Below are positions 3,804-26,559 of a DNA stretch of 28,970 bases, piece by piece. Made by a program: the position numbers and the translations under genes. Source of the stretch: a virus. The DNA lies in IMG/VR virus record IMGVR_UViG_3300027996_000127, positions 1 through 28,970 of that record; one strand, 5' to 3'. Position 1 is the first letter of the stretch, and each line of letters starts with the position of its first letter. The notes below the pieces were generated by a model. The model did no database searches. It was not told where the DNA came from and saw nothing but the letters and a program-made list of their open reading frames with translations.

Positions 3804-5732
3804 TTAGGCCGTGTATGTTGGTATTTGGTCGGTGTCGGTTTTGTTTTTAGCTATATCAGCAGCCGCTAAACCTTCCTCTCCAGCACCCCATGACAAGTGA
3901 AAATGGGCTCCAGTACCGTTTGTTGTCCCCTCTCTATATTCGTCAAGGTATCTAACATTAGGGTACTCACCACCAACAAAACCTTGTATTATGGTTATTA
4001 CTCTATCTAAATCTACGGATGATGTTTTAGAAACTGTAAAATCTATACCATTTCCTTTTTTATGTCTAGAATTGTTATTATACGATTGATGGTAACTGTC
4101 ATTGCCACCCGTAACTTTTATTTTTATATCTGTTAGTTCATATATTTTACTAAAAAGAGCGGAAGCAACTCTTGCTATGTTTTCAGAAATGTCACCACCA
4201 TTTGACATTTCACCATCTGTATATGTTTGATTCAAAAGAAGTTTCCATTCCCCAGTATTTGGGTTAACTGTTGGCACTATGAAGTTTGGTCCAGTACCAC
4301 TACTTTTAGGCCTTGTTTGTGCCGCTATTTGAGCTACGGTGTATGCTGTAGTGTATACTTTCTCCCTAATCTTTAGATTAGCCATAACACGCCTTAGTTT
4401 GCTAGCGTTTGGTGTGGAATTTACTGGTGGTGTCTCACCGCCATTAAATTTGGTCCCATATAATTCAAACCATTTTTGGATTGCCTTTTTATGGTCTAAA
4501 CCAGGTACTTTTGTTACAAAACCTTTCCCATCTTTTATTTTATTTTCCAATATAGGATACCTAACACCCCAAGAACTATAACTTACCATATCATCTGAAC
4601 CCCAAACCATGACCGCGTTGCTACTATAAGTCCTATCTTCTGTATTTATCGGTGATGAAAGTGATGGGTCAATTAACCCACAGATTTTATAACTATCAAT
4701 TTTGCCACCCCCAGCATTAAATGGCGACTTCTCATAGTTATTGAATATGACCCTTCCACCGGCTGAGTACCCCATTATGTTTTTATCTTTCATTTTTTTA
4801 TAATCCCCCCCACTTCTAACAAAAAAAGATTTAAATGGTATCACTAGACCATCAACCGAGTAATTATAGTTTCCATTCACATATGGCGCAAAGTTCCCCA
4901 TTATAATATAATTTTTTTCTTTAACCCCTATCGGTATTTGGTCCCACTGTTTTTTTCTTGACAATAGGGTCTCATATCCACACCAAAAAAATATTACACT
5001 ACTAACTTCACTATCACTTGGCGTATTTACGTAAAATTTATCCGAATCTGTGGTAGTGCTTATTGTTGTTGTTGTGCCAAACTTCGGAATGAAGAACCCA
5101 CCTGCGTTAATATATATGGTTTTACTATTTGACGTATTTAAATTACTGGCTGTTCCGTTATTAGGTGTAGTATATTTTCCGTAAGCTCCTTTATACAATA
5201 CCCAACCCATTTCAATTGTTTTATGGAAGTTTCCGTTCAAAACCTTAGTAAGTGTCACCCATTTTTTTTCTAACTTTTTAATTACAGCCCAAAACTTTAT
5301 AATTGAATTTAAAGCGTTTTTTAGGTCAGCTTCTGTAACACCTGCCTGCCTAACATCCTCAACGGCTACCGTATTTTGGTTTTTCGTGGACATAGGGGCG
5401 TTAAACCCCAACCCAAGCTTTTTTGTTTTTAGTGCCCAACTATCCCCTACGTATTGATACCTTCCCGCTTCCGTTGTTTCATTAAGCCACGATATACTTT
5501 CCCATGTCGTATCTTGGCACACAACAAACCCCTCGTCTATTATTGTTTTCTCTGAAAGTCCTGGGGTTGGTCTTATGCATCTATGTCTTATTCTTGTTGT
5601 GTCTTCTGTCCACCCATTTATAGTTTTTTTACCACCAAAAAGAGTATTAAAACCATTTTGTGATTTACCCAATGTCCCCTCATAGTAAGCTATTGTGTCT
5701 AAAATTGTTTTTTCTAAGTTTGATAATGCCAT
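3804..5732 (-). CDS. Three-domain envelope-degrading enzyme: lambda R-like lysozyme, alpha/beta hydrolase, M15-like peptidase
   Basis: A 642-residue protein from ATG 5732, 4 nt after the hub gene's stop; an upstream in-frame GTG at 5759 would overlap that gene and is less likely. Residues about 1-165 match the lambda R endolysin (GH104 lytic transglycosylase): catalytic candidate E18 in IAYYEGT, then GFNTLFGG, AGRYQYVGDSW and FNAPMSTKNQN. Residues about 200-425 look like an alpha/beta hydrolase, with nucleophile elbow GYSAGG (S323), acid D380 or D381 in VWGSDDM, and H414 in GLDHKK. Residues about 490-615 carry an M15-type zinc peptidase pattern: H557 and D564 in SRHKKGNGIDF, then H610/H612 in HFHLSW. 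There is no signal peptide, so it is either virion-borne or an endolysin needing a holin. Domain calls are by motif; the hydrolase substrate is unknown. Confidence 0.8.
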   Translation of the reverse strand: MALSNLEKTILDTIAYYEGTLGKSQNGFNTLFGGKKTINGWTEDTTRIRHRCIRPTPGLSEKTIIDEGFVVCQDTTWESISWLNETTEAGRYQYVGDSWALKTKKLGLGFNAPMSTKNQNTVAVEDVRQAGVTEADLKNALNSIIKFWAVIKKLEKKWVTLTKVLNGNFHKTIEMGWVLYKGAYGKYTTPNNGTASNLNTSNSKTIYINAGGFFIPKFGTTTTISTTTDSDKFYVNTPSDSEVSSVIFFWCGYETLLSRKKQWDQIPIGVKEKNYIIMGNFAPYVNGNYNYSVDGLVIPFKSFFVRSGGDYKKMKDKNIMGYSAGGRVIFNNYEKSPFNAGGGKIDSYKICGLIDPSLSSPINTEDRTYSSNAVMVWGSDDMVSYSSWGVRYPILENKIKDGKGFVTKVPGLDHKKAIQKWFELYGTKFNGGETPPVNSTPNASKLRRVMANLKIREKVYTTAYTVAQIAAQTRPKSSGTGPNFIVPTVNPNTGEWKLLLNQTYTDGEMSNGGDISENIARVASALFSKIYELTDIKIKVTGGNDSYHQSYNNNSRHKKGNGIDFTVSKTSSVDLDRVITIIQGFVGGEYPNVRYLDEYREGTTNGTGAHFHLSWGAGEEGLAAADIAKNKTDTDQIPTYTA

Positions 5733-5736
5733 AATA

Positions 5737-8700
5737 TTAAGTAATTTGACCTGCCCCACCTAAAGCTTCTTGTGGTGTGTTTCCTGGGTCGTTTATTTGT
5801 GTTTCCGTACCTGGACCAACTGAGTTGGGTTCCGTTGGTTGTTGACCCCTTGTAACTTCTTGTTCAAGTGCATTATCAACAAAAGCTAAATCAATATTAG
5901 AGCTGTTAACATTGCTTGGGTCTCTACCGGCGACCCAATCAACACCACCTGGAGCTGTCCCAGAATATTTCAATTTTAAGTGAATATTCCTTGTCGCTAG
6001 TTCCGCTAATAACGTATCCCAAGGAAACTCTGAACCAACATCTGACTTACTACTGGAAAACCAATGATGTGATGTTACATATTTGATATTTGGGTATTCT
6101 TCTACAGCTAAAACAATTGCTTCTATTATTGCTTTCCATTGTTTTTTCGCTTTAAATGTGTCTCTACCATTTAAATTTAAATCTTCAGTGTTCCAATCGT
6201 TCGCTGTTCTAACATAAACATGCCCCTCCTTGTTATCTTCAACACCACCAGCATAAGAAATACCTATTGAGTACGAATTTATTGGCCGACCATGATAAGC
6301 TATCTTCTTGGTGTCAGAAAGTTTCCATAAACCACCGTCTTTATTTATCTCATAATGATAATGTAACCCTCTTCTTTGTAATGTTCTTGAATCTTCTACC
6401 TTTTGGTACCCTCCTGACCAATGTAAGGCAACATACTCTACGTTACTTGGGGTTATGTTAGACGTTGGTTGGTTGTATGCTACCCACCACCTATCTTTAA
6501 GTGAACCGTCATCATTATGAGATTCTTCCCATTTACCATCAACCTTTACAGTACAATTGTCACATAGTTTGAATTTATGGTTATAATAATTTGATTTGTC
6601 TGTTTCCCCAATATCATATATTTCAACACCTGAATCTGTTATGGATGTTGCTGACGTTGGTAAGTTTATCTCAATTGTGGTTCCATTATTAGTCTGTAAC
6701 ACATCAACACCATATAGTGGGTCCAGAGTTTTCATAGATAAGCTCATCGCTGTAGCTATATCTTCTACTATTGGCACAGTCGCTAATGGTTGTCTAACCC
6801 CCTTAAACGTTGTACCAATATGGTGTGGTTTAACGTTATGTTTTACCTCTGTAATTAGATAAGTCCCATAAAACATAGGTATATTTGTTAATTCAAAATA
6901 TTGTAGTGGTTGAATCATCATATTACCCATGGATTGCACCGTACATGAATAGGACCTTGTTAAATATAAATTATGTAAATTTTGTCCTTTATTTGTTTTA
7001 TCACCTGGATTACCCCCATTCGCCAATCTATCAATCACCAACAATGATTCATTTGTTTCAGAAAATTCAGATTGGTCTAACTCGACTGATTTAAACATGT
7101 TTTGATTTTCAATACCGTACGCAACCCTAAAAGCCGTAACACCATTACCCTCTATTCTACCTTTTGCTCCTTGGTACCCAACTTCATCTTCAAACTCCTT
7201 CTTTGTTTGCCCAATTAAAGGTTCCAATGGGTCTTGCCATTCGTTTGGTTTTGGGAAGGAATTTTCAGCGTCATTACTCATCGAAAACCCATCATCATTA
7301 TATGACATATCTTCATTGTCGGTGGGGCAATTACTACCTTTTGATTTTAAGGATACAGTTCTTGATGTCCCACCGACATACATACAAATAAAGTTTGGGC
7401 CACTACCCTTAGTTATTGAGTTAGTGTCAGACCTAAACATTGATTTTAAATTTGCGTCAGATTTATCATTGGCGAAGTTAGTATATGTCGGTAATGGGAA
7501 AAAATCAAAGTTATTTTCACCTAATAAATCAGATATTACGTTATAAAAACTCATTTTTGGGTTCTTTGGTATCTTTTTTAATCTCATAACATCTAATACC
7601 GCTTTATTACCAATTTCTTGCATAACCCTATTAACATAACTAAAATGACCCGCTAATGGTACATGGTCTGAACCCATTGAGTCATCTACGACATTAGTAT
7701 CTGTTATATTAAAAAAGTAGCTAGGAGTTCCTGCTTTAACTTTTGTACTACTAGAAATCCATTTATCAACGATTGATTTGAATGACCTATATAAAGACAA
7801 TTTTATGTCGTCATCATTTAATACTGAACCGTCATCCCTATTTTCTGGTCCTACTGTTAACTCCTCCCTCTTATCTTGGAAGTGGTCCTTCCATTCCTTT
7901 TGGAAACTATTTAAATATAGTTCAGCTAATTTTTTATTCGCGTAAAAAGCGTTCTTACTTACACCTTCACCATTTAATTCAGATTTATCACCATTCCAAA
8001 CATCTAAATTAAATATTCTGGGTGTCGGTATTATGGCGTAATAAAATTCTTTAACTAGGGTGTTCTGTAATTCTTGGAAATCATCACCATTCTGTGCGTC
8101 AGTAGATAATGTTGTTACCCCAAAAAAGTCTTCGGAACCACCTTCTTCTGGGCCTGTAAATTGTTTCACAGCCGTTATCCCCATTAAATCCTCTAATATG
8201 TCGGAATTAAAGAATTGGTCGTATCTATAAGACTCCCCCAACAGTCCAGTCTGAACATCTTCGTTTCTGTCCCCAGTTCTATTATTACCGTCTAGTTTAA
8301 AGTTAACTGGGTCCACAACACCTAAATATTTTCCCCTCCAATCATTGTCACACCAAGTTTCAAATTCTGTAACAAATTTTTCTTTGATGATTGTTGGCAA
8401 CAATGCCATCACTTCAGCGTATTTACCGCCCTCATAGCATAATAAAGCTGACTCACCCATATTTGGGGGCTTTGCTTTGATTACTAACTGTACGGTATAA
8501 GTTTCTACATCTGTAAGTGGAAGTGGTCTTTCATCTGGGAAAATAAAGGCTGTTGGTAGGTCTACTATTAGTGGGAACTTTACCTTAGTAATATCTACGC
8601 CTGCGTAGTTATTATTACTTTCACCTAAATAACCAAAATTACCAACATAATCCTTAAATATGGTGTCATACATTGGTAATGACATTGTTTGTTCCACAAA

Positions 8701-11700
8701 TTTGTTACTACTATCATCTTCTGCGTGTTGCAAACCTTTGGTTCCTGAGATAGCAATAGCTTCTGTGTAAAAATGTTGCCATGGAGCACACCACAATACA
8801 GGCCAAAAGCTATTTGATGCGGCCTCTTTAGCTGACCTCATTTGTAGTTCTAATGGGGGGTTACCGTCATCGGAAGTTTTTTGACCATTCTGCCAACCCA
8901 ATTGAGTTAATGTGGCGTTAGGAGTATTATATAGATTTCCTCCATCACCGGTACCTCGGTCATCAGCAAAATTATCCCACATGGCGGTCCAAGGTCCTCT
9001 AGTTTTGGGGTAAGAGTAGGAGGTGTAATATGTACCCCAACAGAATGGGCAGGTCAAAGTTGGCTTAGGTAGATAAACCCATTCAACCCCTGCGTGGATG
9101 CTGTTTGCGTTTGGTATCCACCCTTGTGGTCTAGACATATTTAATTTCTTGTCAGCGTTGTACACACCATAATAATCGAACATACACCCATAGGTGAAAG
9201 TGTCTCGCCATTCAATAGCAACTTCTGTTCCAGCTATTGTGGGGTCCATTGTACCATTGAACACAAGAGAGGTTGGCCCGTTTCCAGCATATGTGGCTCT
9301 ATTTATCGCGTCTACCCTAGTTACACCTCTTGAGAAGCAACTTATTTGTGTGTGTTTATGTTGGTCTATATTAGAACCCCATAAATTTTTTTCTGTTTGA
9401 AATACTGTGTTCGCGAAAGACTCACCTTGATTTAGGGACCATGATGTGCTTACTACTGAACCGCCATTATTTGGGGTAACGTTGCCATCTTGTGTTCTAC
9501 TCCTATTTTTTCTTCCAGTCCATTCATTATTACCTAGTTTAAAACCGTTTATTGGTACTTCCTCGCGGGACTCACAAGCAACACCTGGATGACCAGGTTG
9601 AGCTAATGGGTCCATACCCGTTGGTTCTTCACCAAATGCTGGATGTCGCCAACGTATGTTTCCGTTACCGTCAGTATTTGTGCCCATATACATTTTCCAT
9701 CTCCACATTACAGAACCCATGCCATAAACCCATATTTTTGGTATTTTAATTAGCCCTTGTGATGTTACAAATGGTCTTAAAGCTTTTGGGTAATGGTCAC
9801 CTCTATAATTGTATGCCCCATCTCCTGCACTATCGGATGTCAAGTAGAATGTTTTTTTTGTTGCTTCAGCCTGACCACAAGTTATAAAAGGTGTTGTTTT
9901 ACATCCGGCTAAAAATAAATAAGCTAAATTCCTACTTTCTATCTGTTTTGTTGTAAGACCGGCATCTGTAGGAGAGTGATTTAACTCACTAGTGCTTGTG
10001 GTAAGGGGTCTTTTGTACCCCCAATCAGCATTACTTGTTCGGGCATCGTGAAGAGTTTGGTCACTTGTAGATAATAATGGCTCAAACCCATCAACGGTGG
10101 TCGCGTTCCTAAATCTATTTACGTTATCCAACCACAATGGTATTTGTATTAGGTTGTTTATTTCTTGTACCCAACCCCAATTATATTCAGATGCGGTAGA
10201 AAACCCAGTACTAAGGTCACCCATTTTTGTGGGGTCCTTGGTGTTGTTTTCAAATGCAGGAAAACTATCACCACCATCATTTGAGTTCTTCATTCCCACC
10301 CCCGATAACATTCCTGTACCTGGTGGTTCCATGGTAAGACTCATGGGGAAAACTGATTGGCCACCACCACCACTATTAGTCCAATTTGCGTAGTCTTCCA
10401 GTCCCCTTTTTGTTGTATTACCCTCATTCCCTAAAAACATATAAGTGCTCTGCATAAAGGGGTATAAGGACTGTTTAATGCTACCCCACCCTGGAGCTAT
10501 CCTTGAGGTATTTGTTGGGTCGTCAGATGTTGGATAAAGTGGTATTCCAGAATATTTGAGGTCAAAACTTCGATATTCGTTATCGACTGACTCAGCACCT
10601 ATCCCTAGTGTTGTAAATAATCTTAACGAATCATTTATACTACCATCGAACATCACTAATTTTGTTTCATCATGTATGGTGTAACCCGCCTCCATTTCTT
10701 TTTGTGTTGAGGGGTTCTCATGCTTAGAAGACGCTTTTATGGCATCACCTAATTCTGTTTGTAAGTTAAGTCTTCTATCCGTTATGTCTCCAGGTGGACT
10801 ATAATTTAAATCAACGCGGTTTTCATTAATTGTATTTTCAAAATCACCCCCTTCTACTAGTTTGAATAAGTATTTTGGTTGCATTTTTCTTATATCAGAA
10901 TAGATTTTCATCGCGGTAGTACTATTCTCATCCCCAAAACCACCTATAGTAGCTTTTCCAAGCAACCGTATATACCCTCCCTGTGGGTAGTAAGCCCAAT
11001 AACCATCCTCCTTTTCGTAGTTATTTATATAGCTTACATTATCTTCTAATATGTTTGCTGGTGATATGTTTTCAGATAAATCTGTATATTCTGCGTCAGT
11101 AGTAAACCAAGAATTTGTGCCGTCTGTTGGTTTGTCCCTATCTTCTACAGCCCCTTTTAATGCCTGCTCGATTTTCTTTGATAAAAACCCTTCACCGCCA
11201 CTAAACAACCTTAGATTTAAATTTGATAGGGTATCTGCATCTGTTATACAACTCATTAAGTTGTGTGCGTCTATTCGTGCTAATGTTATTACTGGGTTAT
11301 TAGTCTCTTCATTGTTTACATTATACAATGTGTTACCCCAAAGTCGTTGTTTCTGAAACTGTGGTATTTCCTGCAGGTTACCCTCCTCTGTGTCTGCTAT
11401 TCTACCGGGATAATTAAATCCAAGACCCAAATTAAATTGGTTATACCTTATTGGGTCGAAATAAGAAAAGTCCAATGTTACAAACATTCTTTCAGCTATA
11501 ACTTCAGCAATACCATTATCAAGAGCTGTTGAGTCCTGTAGGCTTTTAATTTTCTCTCTATATTTTAACTGTACTTTACTGTAATATTTACTTTCCAATG
11601 GGTTTATTGGCATATAATTATCCCAACCTGGTCTACCCTCCTTATCTTCCAATAAATCTTCATCATTTTCATTAAGCCTATTACACGCGTCAAGAAAATC

Positions 11701-13647
11701 TTCAATAAATCTAACCTCTGGCCAATCCTTAAACTTATCGTTTACACCTGGATATTGTTCTTTTGTTTCTTCTCTATTATTAGCACTATAATTCGCTGTA
11801 GACCTATAATTTGTCTTATAATATGTTGGCCATGGGTATATGGTTTTTGGAGCTTCGCCATTAGCTTGTTTTTTTAATACCGATAATTGGTCGGTGGACC
11901 CACCATTGTTATCATTATTAAGTTCTATTTGTTTGTTTTCTTCATTGTGATGTTCTTCCGCTTCAATACTAACTTTTAAAAGTAACGCTACAAAATTTTC
12001 AACATTACACGACAAAATTGTAAATATATTTCTTATTGTTGGTCTAAACCCTAATATTCTTATAACGCCTTCATCTATCGCTTCTTTAACGGAGTTTCTT
12101 TTTTTCTCTATTTTTTCATCCAGTGTATTAATGTCGCCATCTAACAGTGTGGTTAAAAAACCAACATCAATGTAATAATCACCAACTTCAGCGTTTGTAT
12201 TAGGTACATTAGGGTAATTCAAATAATACCTAATCATACCATCTTGGAACATCATGTTGGGGTCGTCTAAGAAGTCTAACATTTGGTATCTTTCGGGTGT
12301 ACCTTCTTCCGCAATTTGTTTACACCCAGTTAAACCACCATTTATTTGTTTATTTGACGCTACAGCAATATGTGTTCCACCACATTCTTTTTGCTGACCT
12401 AGTTCTTTAGTTGGGGTTTCCTTAATTGTTGGTATGTTTGCTGTTATCTCACCAAAACCTGTCCCATCTTTGTCTTCATTAATATTACCTTTTATTATGG
12501 GTCTATTCCAAACATCATGAAATAGGGTGCTGAGTGCATCGTCTGGGGCTTGGTTAAAGACGTAAAGTTCTTTTATATTTCTTTTAGTACCATCTGGGTT
12601 TGCTGCTTGTGTGAGTAAAGTGTCCTTAATCTGCTCTTTAAAATCTCGTTCCAATTTGCTGGTGAATTTGGTTATTTCCGCCTTCATAGAGGCAACACTG
12701 TTTCTAACTGTGATTAGGTTAGCAATCTCTATATAATCCGCATCCCCTTTAGCTTGTTGTAAAAAAATTTTTATCGCACTTATATCGTCTAACATGTTAG
12801 ATATTGATTTACACTCAACATCGTCCCCACCCACTTTTCTACAAAATGGTTGTACTTTTCCGGCATGATGACCCCCCTGAATAGAAACTCTTTCGACTGT
12901 TGAGAAATAATCTGACTCATCAAAAATACCATTGTCCATATAATACGTGACCGCTTCATCGTATTTTTTTCTTAATGATGCTTTAGCTCCCCAACGGCTT
13001 GTCATATAGTTTGAACATCTAACAAACCCCATTAACATGTCAGCTAAAAAAGCGTAGGACCACCCAATAAATTCTGCTTTACACTCAAAATTACCCGTTT
13101 CTGTGTTAAACTTTGTATTGAACTTTTGTAAATTTAAAAAATATGTTGCGGGTTTACCATAATACCCCTTAAGTGTTAGTTCGAATATTGGGTACGGTAA
13201 GTGGAAGAACATTCCATATGGTGAACAAGAACCCTGTTCAAAAAGGGTGGCCCCTCTAATATCAACAAAGTCTATCACAACTTTTGGTACATAACTACCT
13301 TTGATTTCAATGTCTATATTTGTTATCCCAAAACCCTCAACATCTCCCCTGCTACCCGCGTCATCCATTTGTGAACCGCCAATATCTGACCACGCTGTTG
13401 TTAAAAATTCTCTTTTTTTACCATTACTAGTTGCTGTATCAGACACAACCATATCAACAGTGCTTATGTTAATATTTTCTTGTGATGTATCACCGTTAGT
13501 CCCTTCTGTTAAAAAACTCCTACCTTTTGTTTTAGCAACTAAACTTGCGTAGATATATAAATCTTCATGTTCAACGACTTGGTTTGGTGGGTTTGGGTCT
13601 ATTATAGTTATCGGACCATCACGATATATTTTCGGTTCTATTGCCAT
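5737..13647 (-). CDS. Giant baseplate hub protein with C-terminal N-acetylmuramoyl-L-alanine amidase
   Basis: A 2636-residue protein. The N-terminal part (about 100-220; FHLPYPIFELTLKGYYG, then FECKAEFIGWSYAFLADML) and the segment at about 2225-2286 (PLQYFELTNIPMFYGTYLI, then TTFKGVR) resemble contractile-tail hub proteins of the gp27/Mu gp44 type. Between them lie about 2000 residues, including a Trp/Gly/Asn-rich part (about 1030-1650) with a CPFC pair near 1535. Residues about 2395-2590 form an Amidase_2 domain. Its likely zinc ligands are H2409 (ALHWSGG), H2528 (SHHW) and D2536 (SDVGSEFPW), eight residues apart as H122 and C130 are in T7 lysozyme. The arrangement recalls T4 gp27 plus gp5 in one chain, with the enzyme at the tail tip. 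It starts 2 nt after the gp53-like gene's stop, so it is translationally linked. It is far longer than usual hub proteins. Confidence 0.8.
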   Translation of the reverse strand: MAIEPKIYRDGPITIIDPNPPNQVVEHEDLYIYASLVAKTKGRSFLTEGTNGDTSQENINISTVDMVVSDTATSNGKKREFLTTAWSDIGGSQMDDAGSRGDVEGFGITNIDIEIKGSYVPKVVIDFVDIRGATLFEQGSCSPYGMFFHLPYPIFELTLKGYYGKPATYFLNLQKFNTKFNTETGNFECKAEFIGWSYAFLADMLMGFVRCSNYMTSRWGAKASLRKKYDEAVTYYMDNGIFDESDYFSTVERVSIQGGHHAGKVQPFCRKVGGDDVECKSISNMLDDISAIKIFLQQAKGDADYIEIANLITVRNSVASMKAEITKFTSKLERDFKEQIKDTLLTQAANPDGTKRNIKELYVFNQAPDDALSTLFHDVWNRPIIKGNINEDKDGTGFGEITANIPTIKETPTKELGQQKECGGTHIAVASNKQINGGLTGCKQIAEEGTPERYQMLDFLDDPNMMFQDGMIRYYLNYPNVPNTNAEVGDYYIDVGFLTTLLDGDINTLDEKIEKKRNSVKEAIDEGVIRILGFRPTIRNIFTILSCNVENFVALLLKVSIEAEEHHNEENKQIELNNDNNGGSTDQLSVLKKQANGEAPKTIYPWPTYYKTNYRSTANYSANNREETKEQYPGVNDKFKDWPEVRFIEDFLDACNRLNENDEDLLEDKEGRPGWDNYMPINPLESKYYSKVQLKYREKIKSLQDSTALDNGIAEVIAERMFVTLDFSYFDPIRYNQFNLGLGFNYPGRIADTEEGNLQEIPQFQKQRLWGNTLYNVNNEETNNPVITLARIDAHNLMSCITDADTLSNLNLRLFSGGEGFLSKKIEQALKGAVEDRDKPTDGTNSWFTTDAEYTDLSENISPANILEDNVSYINNYEKEDGYWAYYPQGGYIRLLGKATIGGFGDENSTTAMKIYSDIRKMQPKYLFKLVEGGDFENTINENRVDLNYSPPGDITDRRLNLQTELGDAIKASSKHENPSTQKEMEAGYTIHDETKLVMFDGSINDSLRLFTTLGIGAESVDNEYRSFDLKYSGIPLYPTSDDPTNTSRIAPGWGSIKQSLYPFMQSTYMFLGNEGNTTKRGLEDYANWTNSGGGGQSVFPMSLTMEPPGTGMLSGVGMKNSNDGGDSFPAFENNTKDPTKMGDLSTGFSTASEYNWGWVQEINNLIQIPLWLDNVNRFRNATTVDGFEPLLSTSDQTLHDARTSNADWGYKRPLTTSTSELNHSPTDAGLTTKQIESRNLAYLFLAGCKTTPFITCGQAEATKKTFYLTSDSAGDGAYNYRGDHYPKALRPFVTSQGLIKIPKIWVYGMGSVMWRWKMYMGTNTDGNGNIRWRHPAFGEEPTGMDPLAQPGHPGVACESREEVPINGFKLGNNEWTGRKNRSRTQDGNVTPNNGGSVVSTSWSLNQGESFANTVFQTEKNLWGSNIDQHKHTQISCFSRGVTRVDAINRATYAGNGPTSLVFNGTMDPTIAGTEVAIEWRDTFTYGCMFDYYGVYNADKKLNMSRPQGWIPNANSIHAGVEWVYLPKPTLTCPFCWGTYYTSYSYPKTRGPWTAMWDNFADDRGTGDGGNLYNTPNATLTQLGWQNGQKTSDDGNPPLELQMRSAKEAASNSFWPVLWCAPWQHFYTEAIAISGTKGLQHAEDDSSNKFVEQTMSLPMYDTIFKDYVGNFGYLGESNNNYAGVDITKVKFPLIVDLPTAFIFPDERPLPLTDVETYTVQLVIKAKPPNMGESALLCYEGGKYAEVMALLPTIIKEKFVTEFETWCDNDWRGKYLGVVDPVNFKLDGNNRTGDRNEDVQTGLLGESYRYDQFFNSDILEDLMGITAVKQFTGPEEGGSEDFFGVTTLSTDAQNGDDFQELQNTLVKEFYYAIIPTPRIFNLDVWNGDKSELNGEGVSKNAFYANKKLAELYLNSFQKEWKDHFQDKREELTVGPENRDDGSVLNDDDIKLSLYRSFKSIVDKWISSSTKVKAGTPSYFFNITDTNVVDDSMGSDHVPLAGHFSYVNRVMQEIGNKAVLDVMRLKKIPKNPKMSFYNVISDLLGENNFDFFPLPTYTNFANDKSDANLKSMFRSDTNSITKGSGPNFICMYVGGTSRTVSLKSKGSNCPTDNEDMSYNDDGFSMSNDAENSFPKPNEWQDPLEPLIGQTKKEFEDEVGYQGAKGRIEGNGVTAFRVAYGIENQNMFKSVELDQSEFSETNESLLVIDRLANGGNPGDKTNKGQNLHNLYLTRSYSCTVQSMGNMMIQPLQYFELTNIPMFYGTYLITEVKHNVKPHHIGTTFKGVRQPLATVPIVEDIATAMSLSMKTLDPLYGVDVLQTNNGTTIEINLPTSATSITDSGVEIYDIGETDKSNYYNHKFKLCDNCTVKVDGKWEESHNDDGSLKDRWWVAYNQPTSNITPSNVEYVALHWSGGYQKVEDSRTLQRRGLHYHYEINKDGGLWKLSDTKKIAYHGRPINSYSIGISYAGGVEDNKEGHVYVRTANDWNTEDLNLNGRDTFKAKKQWKAIIEAIVLAVEEYPNIKYVTSHHWFSSSKSDVGSEFPWDTLLAELATRNIHLKLKYSGTAPGGVDWVAGRDPSNVNSSNIDLAFVDNALEQEVTRGQQPTEPNSVGPGTETQINDPGNTPQEALGGAGQIT

Positions 13648-13979: not shown

Positions 13980-16900
13980 TTATTGTGGTTGTGCTCCTAC
14001 AGCCGCTTTTATAGTGTTTAAACCTACCTCAGTTATATACCCCACACATTCTATTCTACCGTGTTGTTTTTTTGGAGATTTATCCCCCCCATTTGCGACT
14101 CTCTTATCAATGCTTGCTTGGTTTTCTCTAAGTGTTATTGAGAATGTAGTTTCCCATTGTGCTTTACCATCCTTTTTGATTCTCTCTTCTATATTTTCAA
14201 TCAGGTCTGTAGACTCGTACTCATTTGTTCCAGCGTAAAATGCCCATTCCTGAAAAGAACTAATCCCACCACCTAACATGTATTGGCTTAAATTAAAGGC
14301 GAATAGTCCCCTACCAACTTGTTCCATTGGTACATTTCCAGATGAAATAACATATGCGTTTGAGTAATCACTGCTGCTGGCGGTGCTTTCTACTACAGCG
14401 TTATGGTCATCCCAAACAACAGCGGTATGAGAACCACCTTGACCAGCAGCAGTAGAACCGTCAAGTCTTAAACAAAAATTATCACTAGTTATTGTTACAT
14501 AGTAGTCATTATTAAGGTCAGGGTGTATTTGCCCACATACCCACTGTGGAAGTAATCCACCTGTAGGGTCTTGTAAGGTTGACGCAAAAACACCCACACC
14601 GTTATCAGCGTTAAGATAATCCCCAGATATAGTTATAGCTCCATTTTCGTTTTCGCGTGTTTCACCTTGGTTGTACCGTAAAGAACTTACTTCTTTAAAT
14701 GCCGGCCCACCTTCATCTGTTGTTGTATTTTGTTGTCCGGTTTCTTCGGTACCATCTTGTGTTTCCTCTATTATCTCTTCTTCTGTTTTGTTGATGTCAG
14801 GCGTTTTCTTTACCCAAAATGTTTGATTAGACATTTGACTCGGATATTCGTCATTACAATAATAAGCGTCCCAGTCATTTGGGTTTGCTTTAACCTCTGT
14901 CCACACTTCACTAGACACATTATCTTGTATGTCAAGTTCTAAAGCCGCACTTTTGTCTGTCTCACCAACTAGAGTAGTATCTAAACAACCTGGAATGGCG
15001 TTTTGTGTGTTACCATCGTTACCACCTTCACCTTGACTTGCCGCCTCTTCTGACTCGTTGGACTCATCGGGTTCATCGGACTCATTACTTATATCACCCA
15101 CATTAGATTCTTCATTTTTACCAACCCCTATCGCGTTGTCAAACTCTGTTGGCCCAGCAAATGGTCCGTAGAAATAATCTCTCTTTTCATTAATATTAAT
15201 ATCCTTTCTCTCATCCAATATTTTCTCCAATGGCATATATAATGCCGTATTAGCAAAGAAGTTATAAGAAACAGCGTTTTGTAGTGCTGATAATGGTCCT
15301 TGTAATGTTGAACCACCGATAAATTTAAAGTTTAAATCAACACTACATAACATTGGTTGTACACCTATACCTTCAGGGTTAAGGTCCCACTGTAAAGGGT
15401 CAAACGTAAAGTTAATTGAGTCTATTATTATTTTAGTAAAATAAAAATCACCTATCCTTAATACACACACAGGTGGTCTACCAAATGCTGTATTTTGTGG
15501 TTGGTTTGGGTCTATAAATGATGGTCCCTGTCTACCACATTGTTGTAAGAATGTAATTCTTGAGTTAAACCCTTCGGGTGTTATTGAATGGAAAGCTGGG
15601 TGGAAGTTTCTCAACTTATCCTTAATACTATCATATAAAAATGAATCCTCTTCTTTTATTTTCATAAAATAATCACACTCATTAATAAAGTTTTTAGCTA
15701 AATCAAGTGCGGCCTGTTTTTCGGATTCAGCTTCAGCTTTTGCTTTTGCTTTTTTTGCCTTAAATTCATCTTGTAAACCTTCATTAATTCCTTGTATTCT
15801 ACGGTCTTGTTCCTTTTGGAACTTATCTAAATACGGTTTAATTAATTTTTCATTTTTTTCTAACCGTATATCAACCCTCCTAGATTCTAATTGACATGTG
15901 TTTTCTGAATCTGATGGGTGTAACCTACTTGGGGTTCTAATAAATTGTCCACTTTTTGAACTACCACCACCACTTAAATTTGAATTGTTGCCTAATCCGG
16001 AACTTTGGTCCTCTCCTTTACCACTAACCTTCCATCTAGGTGATTTGGCTATAGTTTTAACGCCCCCATTTTCTTTATATGGGCTATATTTTTTTTCCGC
16101 TTCTTTATATAACCCAATAGGTTCGAATCCCTCTACAGCCATCGCAACTTTACCATTTTCAGTAGTAACATGGTCTATCTCACATTTTTTCATTTGGTCG
16201 TACATCCATGCCGCAACTGTTAATGCTCTATCATCGGCTAATTTGTTGTTGTATTTGCTATCACCTAAATTACTAGCGTTACCAGTTACAATAATTTTAT
16301 AACCCTTCCCTTCAGGTGTGGTAGATAAAAACTCTATTAACTGGCTTATACCTTGACCTATAACACCTGCTCCCGCAGTTGATACCTGAAATGACCACTC
16401 CTTATCCACACCCAAGTTCAATTTTGGGGTTTTGTTTGATTTATTATATGGTATGCTATCTGGTGTTGAGTCAGCGTCACCTGTACCGAAAAATCTCTCA
16501 TTATACCCATTTCTACTACCCTTAAAACCTAATTTATCCGCACTTATAATAGTACCTGTGGTTGTAGAACCTGTAGTTGGTAGGCATTGATTACAGAATT
16601 CTTGTTTATCATACCCTTGCCCAGACCCTATGTTATACCATAAATTTTTCAAATCCTTTGAAGTGTCTGGTCCCCATATTTGTTTTTGGCCGTTACCACA
16701 CGATAATTTAGTGATTTCCCCACCTCTAGAGTTGTATGTATATATCGGAATTTCCACTAACTCCTCTTGTGTGAATCCTTCTGGAATCAAGTCTGACTCT
16801 TCTAAAAGTAAATGATATGATGCATAAGCAGTTGCATTTGAATTATCAGATTCTGACTCGCTTGCTGATTGAACAATATCTCCTTTAGCGGCCTCTTCAC

Positions 16901-19562
16901 AAACAACAGCTCCAGAACACGACCCTTTCATAGTCACTGAACCTGTTTTATACAACTTTGGGTTGTCATACCAATCTAACAAGTCCTTTTCATAGTTATA
17001 ATCAAAACACCTACCCATGATGACGGATGTTTTAGAGTTAGCCCATTTATCTGATTCTTTACAAGAACTTGCTTTAGGAATTTCGGGGTATTCTGGATAA
17101 TCCCCAGTCACATCATTATGTCTACTACCCACAGCGTTTTTAAAATAAAAACTTAAACCATCTAATTGTTCAGCAATATCTATTATCACCTCTTTTTCCT
17201 CTACTTCTTCTGGTTTTGGTATTACTGTTTCTTCAGCTGGTATAATCTCTTTGTAAGCTTCCCTTATTATATTTTTTGTTGTATTAGCGTCACATCCAGC
17301 AAAGAATGTTTCTAAGTTTGTAGTTGAACTTACGGTTTCCACTTTCCCCTCTTCATTAACTTTTGTTGTTTTAAAGGCGTCATCTTTTAGTTTATTAAGT
17401 ACTGATGGATGGTCAACAACAATTGAAAATGTCAGTGTTCCCGTTCTTTCTGTATTATTGTATGTGTATATTGGTTCCGCTCTACCTATGAATGTTGTCG
17501 TGTCCCAATTAACGGATGTATTATCTGTGAAACTTATGTTATACGGTGGAAACCACATTAACCTACCACCAAAAGGTCCTTTCTCACATGCTGGTAATTT
17601 TCTATAATGTGGGGAGTCTTTCCAAGCTAAGTTTTCAATAGAAAACATATATGGTATAACATGTTTTTTATCAACAAGTAGACTATTTAGTTTTTCCGCT
17701 TTCATTATATCACCCTCTGTTAGTCCGTCCTTTTCCCAAGCTATTTTTGGTATCCCAGGGTTTCTTAATGTTGTGTACTTACCTAATTTTGTGCTTGGGT
17801 CTGATTTCCCATCTCTAATAGTACCAGGTTGGGTATTTCTCCATAGTTCATCATGTCTTATTAAGTCATGATATCTATTGTATGCGTTTCTTACTGACCA
17901 TGAACGACAATAATATTTGTTTTCTTTTGTTTCTTTAACTAAATTACCTTGGGACATCTGTGTGTGTCTTCTATCACCACTTTTAGCGTCATAGTTTTGG
18001 TCCGAGTTTGGCATACCAATAAACCTAGCTGGTGTTCCGGCAATATTTGTTGATTTATCAATCAATTTTTGTGTGTAAGCTAATAACCCCCTTTTAGGTG
18101 TGTCGAGGTCATCCTTACGTTCTTTCCAATATAAATCATCATTCCAAACTTGTGGACCTGGTTCGTGACCTTGACTTGAACCAGGAACTAATGTTCCATC
18201 ATTTTTTGTCCAAGTACCCTCAAAAGAACTTAATTCATCTAACCCAGGCGTTATTTTTCTGGGGCCTGATACCCAACGATTCCAATTTGAAATGTGTCCA
18301 TCATCATCCCCTTTTTTATAGTCTTTTAATAGATATTCAATTTCTTCACCATATTTTTCAAACTCAAAGCCTTGGTTTTTTAATTTATCATTTGTTACTA
18401 AAGCTACTGATGGGTTATCAGCCTCTGTAGGGGTGATTGGGATATCTGGTCTAGAATTTCTAACACCGTTAAGTTTTTCTTCAACGTCTTCAATAAAATC
18501 CGCACCAAAAGTTTTAGCACTTTCCGCAAGTCCTTTTAAATCTTCTTTGCGTCTTTTCTTTTCTTTTCTTTTTAACTTAAATTCTTTACTATTCGAAAAA
18601 GCTAAATAACCTAGTTTTTCTTTTGGTTCATCTTCTTTATTTGATTTTCTTGATAATTGTCTAGTGAATTTATCACTATCTATTCTTGGTCCGTATTTAT
18701 TTGGTGCTAACGATTTGAATAGTAAACCTCGTGTTCCTTTTCCGGTATGTTTTAATAGTGACTTTGTGATGTCTACCGTGGATGTTGAAAATGGGTCTGA
18801 CATTGGTTGGTCCCAATCAAAAGCACCATCTGGTAGTGGGTCACCCCTTAAAGCTAATAGATTAATGTCGGCTAAATCTGTTAGTATACCTAACCCTGGT
18901 ATTGGTATGCCTTTCGATGGTTTGGTTATTTTATAATCTTTACCAAATAAAGGTTGCCCAGATAGTAACCCTATTGGGTCTAAATTAACCCTACCAACAG
19001 TTTCATTTATAAGATTTTCTTTTATCCTACTCTTTAACTCAGTTAAACGTCTTTTGTTCGCTATCTCATTTAGTTCTGACGGAAAATCTATTAAAAAAGA
19101 GTTTAACCCACCCAAACCAACAGCATCTAAAGTTTCCCCCAATAAGTTAGTGAGAGCGTTTCCTCCAACCGATGTTTGGTACTGTATAAACCCTGTTTCA
19201 TCAACTTCTAGTTCTGGACAATTAAATTCCTCTGGGTAAGCTAAAGATTTCGGACCATACTCGTTTTCACCTAAAATAGTTTGGGTTCTAATATCATTTA
19301 GGTCAACAGGGAAATTACCCTCTAATAACCACTCATCTAAGTTACCAGGATTTGTTATTGGTCCGTAGTTTATGCTTTTTTCTAACCCCTTCTCATCATA
19401 CTTAGATAAAAAGTTACCAGCAGCTCCATCAATTAATTCTTGTGGTAGGTCTGGTAAATTTTGACTAAAAAGATATGTTAAATAGTTTGTATCCGTTATA
19501 TCACCAAAACTATAACTTTGGAAAAAGTCTATATTGTAATTGTTGGGATTTATCGCTGGCAT
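13980..19562 (-). CDS. Giant baseplate/tail-initiation protein with internal OmpA-like domain
   Basis: An 1860-residue protein. The N-terminal third is unassigned. Around residue 665-720 is MWFPPYNISFTDN followed by IGRAEPIYTYNNTERTGTL, a beta-rich pattern resembling tail-tube or tube-initiator proteins. Residues about 1050-1235 look like an OmpA C-terminal domain: IIVTGNAS, then NNKLADDRALTVAAWM and finally ESRRVDIRLEKN; such domains bind peptidoglycan. A Lys/Ala/Glu coiled coil (about 1235-1290) leads to a block conserved in large phage baseplate proteins, as I recall them (FHSITPEGFNSRITFLQQ; LRIGDFYFTK; WDLNPEGIGVQPM; about 1310-1430). An acidic Ser/Glu linker (about 1485-1515) and a C-terminal domain follow. 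It begins a late unit with the LysM-like, hub and lysozyme genes. The OmpA and baseplate calls are by motif; the exact wedge or hub role is unknown. Confidence 0.75.
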   Translation of the reverse strand: MPAINPNNYNIDFFQSYSFGDITDTNYLTYLFSQNLPDLPQELIDGAAGNFLSKYDEKGLEKSINYGPITNPGNLDEWLLEGNFPVDLNDIRTQTILGENEYGPKSLAYPEEFNCPELEVDETGFIQYQTSVGGNALTNLLGETLDAVGLGGLNSFLIDFPSELNEIANKRRLTELKSRIKENLINETVGRVNLDPIGLLSGQPLFGKDYKITKPSKGIPIPGLGILTDLADINLLALRGDPLPDGAFDWDQPMSDPFSTSTVDITKSLLKHTGKGTRGLLFKSLAPNKYGPRIDSDKFTRQLSRKSNKEDEPKEKLGYLAFSNSKEFKLKRKEKKRRKEDLKGLAESAKTFGADFIEDVEEKLNGVRNSRPDIPITPTEADNPSVALVTNDKLKNQGFEFEKYGEEIEYLLKDYKKGDDDGHISNWNRWVSGPRKITPGLDELSSFEGTWTKNDGTLVPGSSQGHEPGPQVWNDDLYWKERKDDLDTPKRGLLAYTQKLIDKSTNIAGTPARFIGMPNSDQNYDAKSGDRRHTQMSQGNLVKETKENKYYCRSWSVRNAYNRYHDLIRHDELWRNTQPGTIRDGKSDPSTKLGKYTTLRNPGIPKIAWEKDGLTEGDIMKAEKLNSLLVDKKHVIPYMFSIENLAWKDSPHYRKLPACEKGPFGGRLMWFPPYNISFTDNTSVNWDTTTFIGRAEPIYTYNNTERTGTLTFSIVVDHPSVLNKLKDDAFKTTKVNEEGKVETVSSTTNLETFFAGCDANTTKNIIREAYKEIIPAEETVIPKPEEVEEKEVIIDIAEQLDGLSFYFKNAVGSRHNDVTGDYPEYPEIPKASSCKESDKWANSKTSVIMGRCFDYNYEKDLLDWYDNPKLYKTGSVTMKGSCSGAVVCEEAAKGDIVQSASESESDNSNATAYASYHLLLEESDLIPEGFTQEELVEIPIYTYNSRGGEITKLSCGNGQKQIWGPDTSKDLKNLWYNIGSGQGYDKQEFCNQCLPTTGSTTTGTIISADKLGFKGSRNGYNERFFGTGDADSTPDSIPYNKSNKTPKLNLGVDKEWSFQVSTAGAGVIGQGISQLIEFLSTTPEGKGYKIIVTGNASNLGDSKYNNKLADDRALTVAAWMYDQMKKCEIDHVTTENGKVAMAVEGFEPIGLYKEAEKKYSPYKENGGVKTIAKSPRWKVSGKGEDQSSGLGNNSNLSGGGSSKSGQFIRTPSRLHPSDSENTCQLESRRVDIRLEKNEKLIKPYLDKFQKEQDRRIQGINEGLQDEFKAKKAKAKAEAESEKQAALDLAKNFINECDYFMKIKEEDSFLYDSIKDKLRNFHPAFHSITPEGFNSRITFLQQCGRQGPSFIDPNQPQNTAFGRPPVCVLRIGDFYFTKIIIDSINFTFDPLQWDLNPEGIGVQPMLCSVDLNFKFIGGSTLQGPLSALQNAVSYNFFANTALYMPLEKILDERKDININEKRDYFYGPFAGPTEFDNAIGVGKNEESNVGDISNESDEPDESNESEEAASQGEGGNDGNTQNAIPGCLDTTLVGETDKSAALELDIQDNVSSEVWTEVKANPNDWDAYYCNDEYPSQMSNQTFWVKKTPDINKTEEEIIEETQDGTEETGQQNTTTDEGGPAFKEVSSLRYNQGETRENENGAITISGDYLNADNGVGVFASTLQDPTGGLLPQWVCGQIHPDLNNDYYVTITSDNFCLRLDGSTAAGQGGSHTAVVWDDHNAVVESTASSSDYSNAYVISSGNVPMEQVGRGLFAFNLSQYMLGGGISSFQEWAFYAGTNEYESTDLIENIEERIKKDGKAQWETTFSITLRENQASIDKRVANGGDKSPKKQHGRIECVGYITEVGLNTIKAAVGAQPQ

Positions 19563-25476: not shown

Positions 25477-26559
25477 ATGAACGACTTAAAATTAAATAGA
25501 TTAAAAGAGGTATTATCAATACCCACTCACTCAGGTGAAGAAGAATTAATGATTTCTTATTTAGAAAAAGTTTTAACCGAAAAAGGTTATGACCACTATA
25601 AAGATGTTATTGGTAATATATACGTAACAAAAGGTGACGCAGAGTTTTACCCATGTTTCGTTTCACACACCGACACTGTACACTATGTAAACCACAATAT
25701 GAAAGTTGTAGAACTTGAAGAAAACGGTAAAAAAATACTTACTGGTATTGATACGACCACAATGACACCTTCAGGTATAGGTGGTGATGATAAATGTGGT
25801 GTTTATCTTTGTCTTGAAATGTTAGATAAATTGGATAGTATTAAAGCGGCGTTTTTTGTTTCTGAGGAAGTTGGATGTATAGGTTCTAGACAAGCAGACC
25901 CAAAGTTTTTTAAAAATGTTGGGTACGCGATACAATACGACTCACCAAAAGGGAATTCTATGAGTATGTCTTTAATGGGCAAAAACCTATTTGGTAAGAA
26001 AACTGTTTTTGGTGAAAAGGTTAGTCCTTTAATTCTTGAACACGGAATTACAGATTGGGCTAGACACCCATACACTGATATATGGCCTTTAATGGAGAAG
26101 TTTGGGTTTTCTTGTTTAAATCTAGCCGCTGGTTATTACAACTACCATACTAGTACGGAGTATGTGATAGTTGATGACGTTACAAACGCTTTTGAGTTAG
26201 GGTTAAAATTACACGAAACTTTAGGTGAAAAGTTCTATGAAAGACCAGAGGATAACGAAAAATCACCTTTTAAATCTTTATTTGGCGGTAGTTATTACGA
26301 TGAACGACAACTAATCACTGAAGACGATGAAGACGATGAAGACACTGACGATAGTTATTTAGATGACGACTTATATTTCGATGATGAAGATAATGATGAA
26401 AGTTTAACTAGTGATGACGAAAAAGAACTAATAGATGTTAGTAGTGGTTACAAAGTTGGTGAATTTGAGGATTTATGGGATTATAGTGACTTTAATGGTG
26501 GGTACACAATACAGAAATATGGTGAAACTTATTGTGGAGATGTTGATTTTGATTGGTAA
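25477..26559 (+). CDS. M20-type zinc metallopeptidase, compact, with acidic C-terminal tail
   Basis: A 360-residue protein. Metal-site motifs in order: H64-x-D66 in SHTDTV, D104/D105 in GIGGDDKCG, the E130-E131 pair in SEEVGCIGS, D155 in QYDSPKGN, and H224 in NYHTSTEY. This is the M20/peptidase T order for a two-zinc peptidase trimming short peptides or dipeptides. Only 69 residues separate D155 from H224, leaving little room for the dimerisation lid domain usual in M20 enzymes, so the protein would be catalytic domain only. Residues about 285-320 are mostly Asp and Glu, and a soluble tail with GGYTIQKYGETYCGD follows. It is cytoplasmic (no signal peptide). It has its own host-type promoter and terminator and opposes the late genes, suggesting early expression. 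Role in infection unknown: amino-acid supply or processing of a host or phage peptide. Confidence 0.8.
   Translation: MNDLKLNRLKEVLSIPTHSGEEELMISYLEKVLTEKGYDHYKDVIGNIYVTKGDAEFYPCFVSHTDTVHYVNHNMKVVELEENGKKILTGIDTTTMTPSGIGGDDKCGVYLCLEMLDKLDSIKAAFFVSEEVGCIGSRQADPKFFKNVGYAIQYDSPKGNSMSMSLMGKNLFGKKTVFGEKVSPLILEHGITDWARHPYTDIWPLMEKFGFSCLNLAAGYYNYHTSTEYVIVDDVTNAFELGLKLHETLGEKFYERPEDNEKSPFKSLFGGSYYDERQLITEDDEDDEDTDDSYLDDDLYFDDEDNDESLTSDDEKELIDVSSGYKVGEFEDLWDYSDFNGGYTIQKYGETYCGDVDFDW

Follow-up and report, generated by a model that had tools for sequence, protein, structure and literature searches.

Esterase-type and peptidase domains are known to occur together in Gp44 (Tal) of Staphylococcus phage phi11, which contains an endopeptidase and an SGNH lipase/esterase (PMC5380687). 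The protein described here is predicted to be like Gp44 in placing an esterase-type and a peptidase domain within one (probable) baseplate protein; it differs in that the esterase of Gp44 is of the SGNH and not the alpha/beta hydrolase type, that no glycan-cutting domain is listed for Gp44, and that the host of phi11 is Gram-positive. Since phi11 Gp44 has both in one baseplate protein, the idea of joining an esterase to an endopeptidase is not new. Mycobacteriophage LysB (PMC6116005) is another phage esterase by which a layer of the envelope is opened, but it is the product of a separate lysis gene and acts on the mycolyl esters of mycobacteria. No phage protein combining a transglycosylase, an esterase and a peptidase was found in the open-licence literature; measured against that literature, the triple combination, the use of an alpha/beta hydrolase in such a role, an esterase embedded in a hub-like protein, and the unnamed hedgehog/M15-like family described below all appear to be new.

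The DNA analysed, here called the window, is a virus fragment of 28,970 bases (IMG/VR record IMGVR_UViG_3300027996_000127), and IMG/VR holds a second contig near-identical to it. The gene of interest is an uninterrupted frame of 642 codons on the minus strand, running from an ATG at 5732 to its end at 3804, with an in-frame GTG at 5759, upstream of the ATG, as a possible longer start. It begins 4 nt past the stop of a giant hub-like gene:

3804..5732, minus strand: the whole gene, 642 aa, with three predicted enzymatic domains (open frame; homologues L008, L004 and L010).
5737..13647, minus strand: giant hub-like baseplate gene, 2636 aa, preceding the 642-aa gene (by position; the L062 equivalent contains an esterase domain).
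6040..6447, minus strand: aa 2401-2536 of the hub-like protein, a C-terminal Amidase_2 domain (Pfam E=1.8e-7).

Pfam matches in the window included a T4 baseplate protein (PF12322) and gp32, with a gp19-like tail tube protein below cut-off, and because of these three genes we assign the fragment to a T4-like contractile phage. The nearest relatives of the tail tube protein were in an uncultured phage, Microcystis phage Mel-JY01, Rhodothermus phage RM378 and Flavobacterium phages. Two other window genes are recorded in passing: an 1860-aa baseplate-region protein (13980-19562, minus strand), in which aa 1073-1122 resemble OmpA at a score below the Pfam cut-off, and a weakly M42/M28 aminopeptidase-like protein whose gene (25477-26559, plus strand) is flanked by tail genes and read from the opposite strand.

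An earlier note on this DNA had proposed that glycan-, ester- and peptide-cleaving domains follow one another in the 642-residue chain; this was confirmed by profile comparisons, by fold searches and by recurrence of the arrangement. All three domains are present in the same order in the homologue L008, where 57, 49 and 40% of residues agree with the window protein in the N-terminal, middle and C-terminal domains, respectively, and the middle and C-terminal domains are both found in L004 and L010, which are incomplete contigs. The recurrence of the order in L008, and of the last two domains in L004 and L010, indicates that the arrangement is more than chance. Scans of bacterial genomes revealed no relatives of the window protein.

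The N-terminal domain resembles the lambda R endolysin:

5163..5732, minus strand: lambda R-like (GH104) lytic transglycosylase domain, residues 1-190 (profile, PHROG and L008 homologue).
5679..5681, minus strand: codon of E18, the predicted catalytic Glu (lambda R E19; AYYEGT aligned on AWSEGT).

Lambda lysozyme was matched by the single N-terminal sequence at E=0.0047 and, as 3d3d/1am7, by a two-sequence N-terminal profile at E=1.5e-5. In the alignment the catalytic Glu of lambda is paired with E18, within a short opening segment that would be weak if taken alone; together with the profile match, the expected homology to lambda lysozyme, catalytic Glu included, was borne out. The same domain matched a tail fiber/lysozyme PHROG (E=3.5e-6), while its L008 homologue matched phrog_90, an endolysin (E=5.7e-18), as well as GH104 proteins of plasmids (tblastn); a viral scan with the N-terminal domain found no further relatives. 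The domain is thus homologous to lambda R (GH104) and has its catalytic Glu motif in common; lambda R, however, is a single-domain, free lysis enzyme, and the window domain is fused to two others. That lambda R is an endolysin, and that the PHROG match of L008 is an endolysin, would favour the view that the 642-aa protein is a usual endolysin, produced late for lysis and absent from the particle; the window, moreover, covers only a 29-kb fragment. The gene neighbourhood considered below weighs against that view.

The C-terminal domain had been proposed to be an M15-like zinc peptidase with ligands H557, D564 and H610/H612, and was examined in a second model with a core pLDDT of about 90:

3873..4415, minus strand: hedgehog/M15-like zinc peptidase domain, residues 440-620, with a well-modelled core at about 515-618 (model, Foldseek, VIA and profile).
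4062..4064, minus strand: codon of H557, predicted Zn ligand (invariant in 49/49; falls on the His of Shh SLHYEGRAVD).
4041..4043, minus strand: codon of D564, predicted Zn ligand (invariant in 49/49; falls on the Asp of Shh SLHYEGRAVD).
3939..3941, minus strand: codon of E598, predicted catalytic base (EY motif, invariant in 49/49).
3903..3905, minus strand: codon of H610, predicted third Zn ligand (invariant in 49/49).

Scanning viral contigs with the C-terminal core found 116 relatives, of which 80 were kept; 49 distinct sequences were aligned, and T541, N544, D545, H548, S555, H557, G560, D564, E598, Y599 and H610 were invariant in all 49. A profile built from 28 of the sequences matched Sonic hedgehog (E=0.003), and the fold search with the model placed hedgehog first, followed by VldE, LdcB, VanXY, Ply500 and MepA. 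The fold match is only moderate, since the best Foldseek E was 2.9e-3 and the VIA Z scores were 8.7 or less; sequence and predicted fold nevertheless agree, and with moderate confidence we regard the domain as having a hedgehog/M15-like fold. The zinc fold and motif of the original proposal therefore stand, the hedgehog branch being closer than classical M15, and three of the ligands (H557, D564 and H610) were upheld while H612, an Asp in one homologue, was not. The Pfam M15 families (VanY, M15_3 and M15_4) matched neither the window protein nor the related members tested, and Pfam, NCBIfam and PHROG scans returned no family for this domain. With the hedgehog N-domain and the M15 enzymes (VanXY, Ply500, LdcB and VldE) it has in common the fold, HxxGxxxD, a Glu and a later His; it differs in reading EY...HxH where hedgehog/M15 peptidases have ExxH, and in lacking a Pfam/PHROG family.

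A homologous hedgehog/M15-like domain, at about 30% identity, is found in a large putative endolysin/tail fiber protein of Erwinia phages Joad and RisingSun; that is a large jumbo-phage protein, in which no match to the window alpha/beta hydrolase was found. Some relatives carry lysozyme-type domains (Phage_lysozyme2 and SLT in L202, GH19 in L225), and PG_binding_1 was matched in several. As a separate observation, L150, L158, L202, L225 and others make up a broad phage family with invariant ND-H-S-H-G-D-EY-H and without a Pfam/PHROG name.

Between these two domains lies the predicted esterase:

4437..5135, minus strand: alpha/beta hydrolase (esterase D/IroE/CE1-like), residues 200-432 (model and fold search).
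4764..4766, minus strand: codon of S323, predicted nucleophile in GYSAGG (follows strand 316-322; kept in 4/5 sequences).
4668..4670, minus strand: codon of D355, an invariant Asp-Pro and candidate acid (follows strand 349-354; 5/5 sequences).
4491..4493, minus strand: codon of H414, predicted catalytic His (kept in 4/5; L010 lost both His and Ser).

The AlphaFold2 model containing this domain is of low confidence (mean pLDDT 50.5). Residues 195-432 nonetheless gave 40 Foldseek matches in the PDB at E<=0.001, with feruloyl and other esterases on top, and VIA Z scores of 10.8 to esterase D (over 202 residues, rmsd 3.9) and 10.7 to IroE; identity in the structural alignments to the esterase D/IroE/CE1 type was about 6-16%. 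The proposal that the middle segment is an alpha/beta hydrolase is thus corroborated by predicted and matched fold, at low model confidence. S323 after strand 316-322, D355 after strand 349-354 and H414 a few residues past strand 405-409 follow one another as they should in an alpha/beta hydrolase, within that low-confidence model. The esterase D/S-formylglutathione hydrolase/IroE/CE1 group (PF00756 type) has the predicted fold and GxSxG in common with the middle domain; unlike the esterase D type, the latter has no Pfam match and no conserved acid after the strand that precedes the strand of H414. Scans of Pfam (PF00756 included), NCBIfam and PHROG found no family for it.

The comparison of the middle domain comprised only five distinct sequences (window, L008, L004, L016 and L010). 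GxSxG and the C-terminal His are kept in the first four, so that S323 and H414 of the triad proposed earlier hold up; the D380/D381 site reads GSDD, GSDA, GSSG or GSPG where Ser and His are intact, and because it is not conserved we rejected D380/D381 as the catalytic acid. D355, in a DPS motif, is invariant in 5/5. To judge from these sequences, the catalytic acid may be D355; if not, the enzyme would work by a Ser-His dyad, as does IroE (PMC2661963), an enzyme with the same type of fold.

L010 (3-590) has lost both the Ser (MGVGNRAN) and the His (TDQ) of the middle domain. It is 78% identical to L008 over the C-terminal domain and only 40% over the middle domain, where mismatches by codon position were nearly even (0.44, 0.41 and 0.51). 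Window and L004, which keep Ser and His, are 58% identical over the middle and 59% over the C-terminal domain, with changes biased to third positions. The pattern in L010 fits relaxed constraint after catalysis was lost, in one lineage only. It could also be read to mean that the middle domain has a hydrolase fold but serves to bind and not to catalyse, seeing that L010 keeps the domain despite the loss of both residues and that the active site of one known carbohydrate esterase doubles as a non-catalytic binder (PMC2661963). We consider this very unlikely: GYSAGG and the His are retained in four of the five sequences, and the middle domain equals its C-terminal neighbour in conservation where the residues are kept (window/L004) and diverges where they are lost.

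The neighbourhood of the gene bears on where the protein would act. Neither the PDB nor PHROG gave a match for the domain conserved in the hub-like protein; because of this the label "hub" is based on the protein's size and position, its baseplate neighbours and a neighbouring gene in L039 that matches a PHROG for baseplate hub/tail lysozyme. The alpha/beta hydrolase of L062/L016 sits inside the hub-like ORF, at about aa 811-1045 of 3370. What lies in the slot separating the hub-like gene from a conserved 188-aa gene differs among relatives, and either the slot or the hub C-terminus may hold Phage_lysozyme2, Amidase_2, VanY, M15_4 or SGNH-like domains. An SGNH-like domain lies downstream of a tail lysozyme domain in L012 (7080-7736), with homologues in L018 and L021, and another, 33% identical to that of L012, forms part of the hub C-terminus of L023; their Pfam GDSL matches are weak (E=0.002 and 0.08). 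Esterase-type domains of two folds thus recur beside muralytic domains in one clade, and the recurrence of two unrelated esterase folds at this spot suggests that ester groups are probably a regular envelope obstacle for these phages. Gene context and the esterase embedded in the hub-like protein of L062 favour a particle-borne location for the 642-aa protein. Since that esterase is inside a hub-like ORF, and the other enzymes of the slot either form the C-terminus of a hub-like protein or are encoded by adjoining genes, we think it unlikely that the protein serves only in lysis.

Several further features of this region were seen. In L012, L018, L034 and L039 the part conserved in the hub-like protein is found in two or three tandem gene copies, with differing C-terminal enzymes; the hub C-terminus of L020 (5291-7927) has an amidase, a tail lysozyme and an M15_4 domain in a single chain; and a C-terminal stretch of L016/L023 resembles a transglycosylase by motif alone. 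A C-terminal stretch of L034, considered as a degenerate alpha/beta hydrolase, was dropped when profile comparison gave no match.

The reading that we prefer, at a probability of roughly 0.45, is that a T4-like contractile phage carries the 642-aa protein in its virion, in association with the baseplate, as an enzyme for breaching the wall, with an esterase that acts in the same layer as its neighbours. The activities and the substrate that we infer are as follows: glycan strands would be cut by the N-terminal lambda R-type transglycosylase and stem peptides by the C-terminal hedgehog/M15-like zinc domain, and the alpha/beta hydrolase would remove ester groups from the same layer, most plausibly the MurNAc 6-O-acetyl. 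Lytic transglycosylases need the free C-6 hydroxyl of MurNAc for their reaction, so O-acetylation there precludes them and leaves peptidases unaffected (PMC6174289); an esterase beside the transglycosylase would lift this block. It counts against this reading that the Ape peptidoglycan O-acetylesterases are SGNH enzymes, not of the esterase D type (PMC6174289).

The earlier note had suggested that an outer-membrane or capsule ester might be the target. On this alternative the esterase would attack an ester of the outer membrane, capsule or exopolysaccharide (O-antigen O-acetyl or lipid), and the protein would open several layers in turn. The nearest folds, which are general carbohydrate and small-ester esterases, are consistent with it, as are the virion O-antigen deacetylases, and the predicted virion lipases in eight Cellulophaga phages, that have been reviewed (PMC5380687). 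It is also favoured by LUCX_176 of Xanthomonas phage LucasX (L228:4162-6648), an 829-aa protein annotated as hypothetical, with a DUF7941 N-terminus, no muralytic domain found, and a C-terminal alpha/beta hydrolase that matches Pfam Esterase and gives a weak tblastn match to the window middle domain (E=8e-3). The window domain, though, is flanked by two peptidoglycan enzymes and encoded next to the hub and not in a fibre or spike, and the SGNH-like domain of L012 follows a tail lysozyme domain; we judge an outer-layer target to be rather unlikely, and a peptidoglycan O-acetyl ester plausibly suits the adjacent domains no less.

If the preferred reading of a virion-borne wall enzyme is true, the protein would be a wall drill with three activities in a single chain, and ester groups would be a barrier to be cleared on entry. 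We suggest, tentatively and as a possibility that we ourselves hold in some doubt, that the clade carries a built-in de-O-acetylase with its baseplate muralytic enzymes, recruited separately as an alpha/beta hydrolase and as an SGNH enzyme, which would counter peptidoglycan O-acetylation during DNA delivery. The analysis also exposes a wide family of hedgehog/M15-like phage peptidases without a name in Pfam or PHROGs, and if the esterase does de-acetylate peptidoglycan, phage counter-measures to O-acetylation would become testable.
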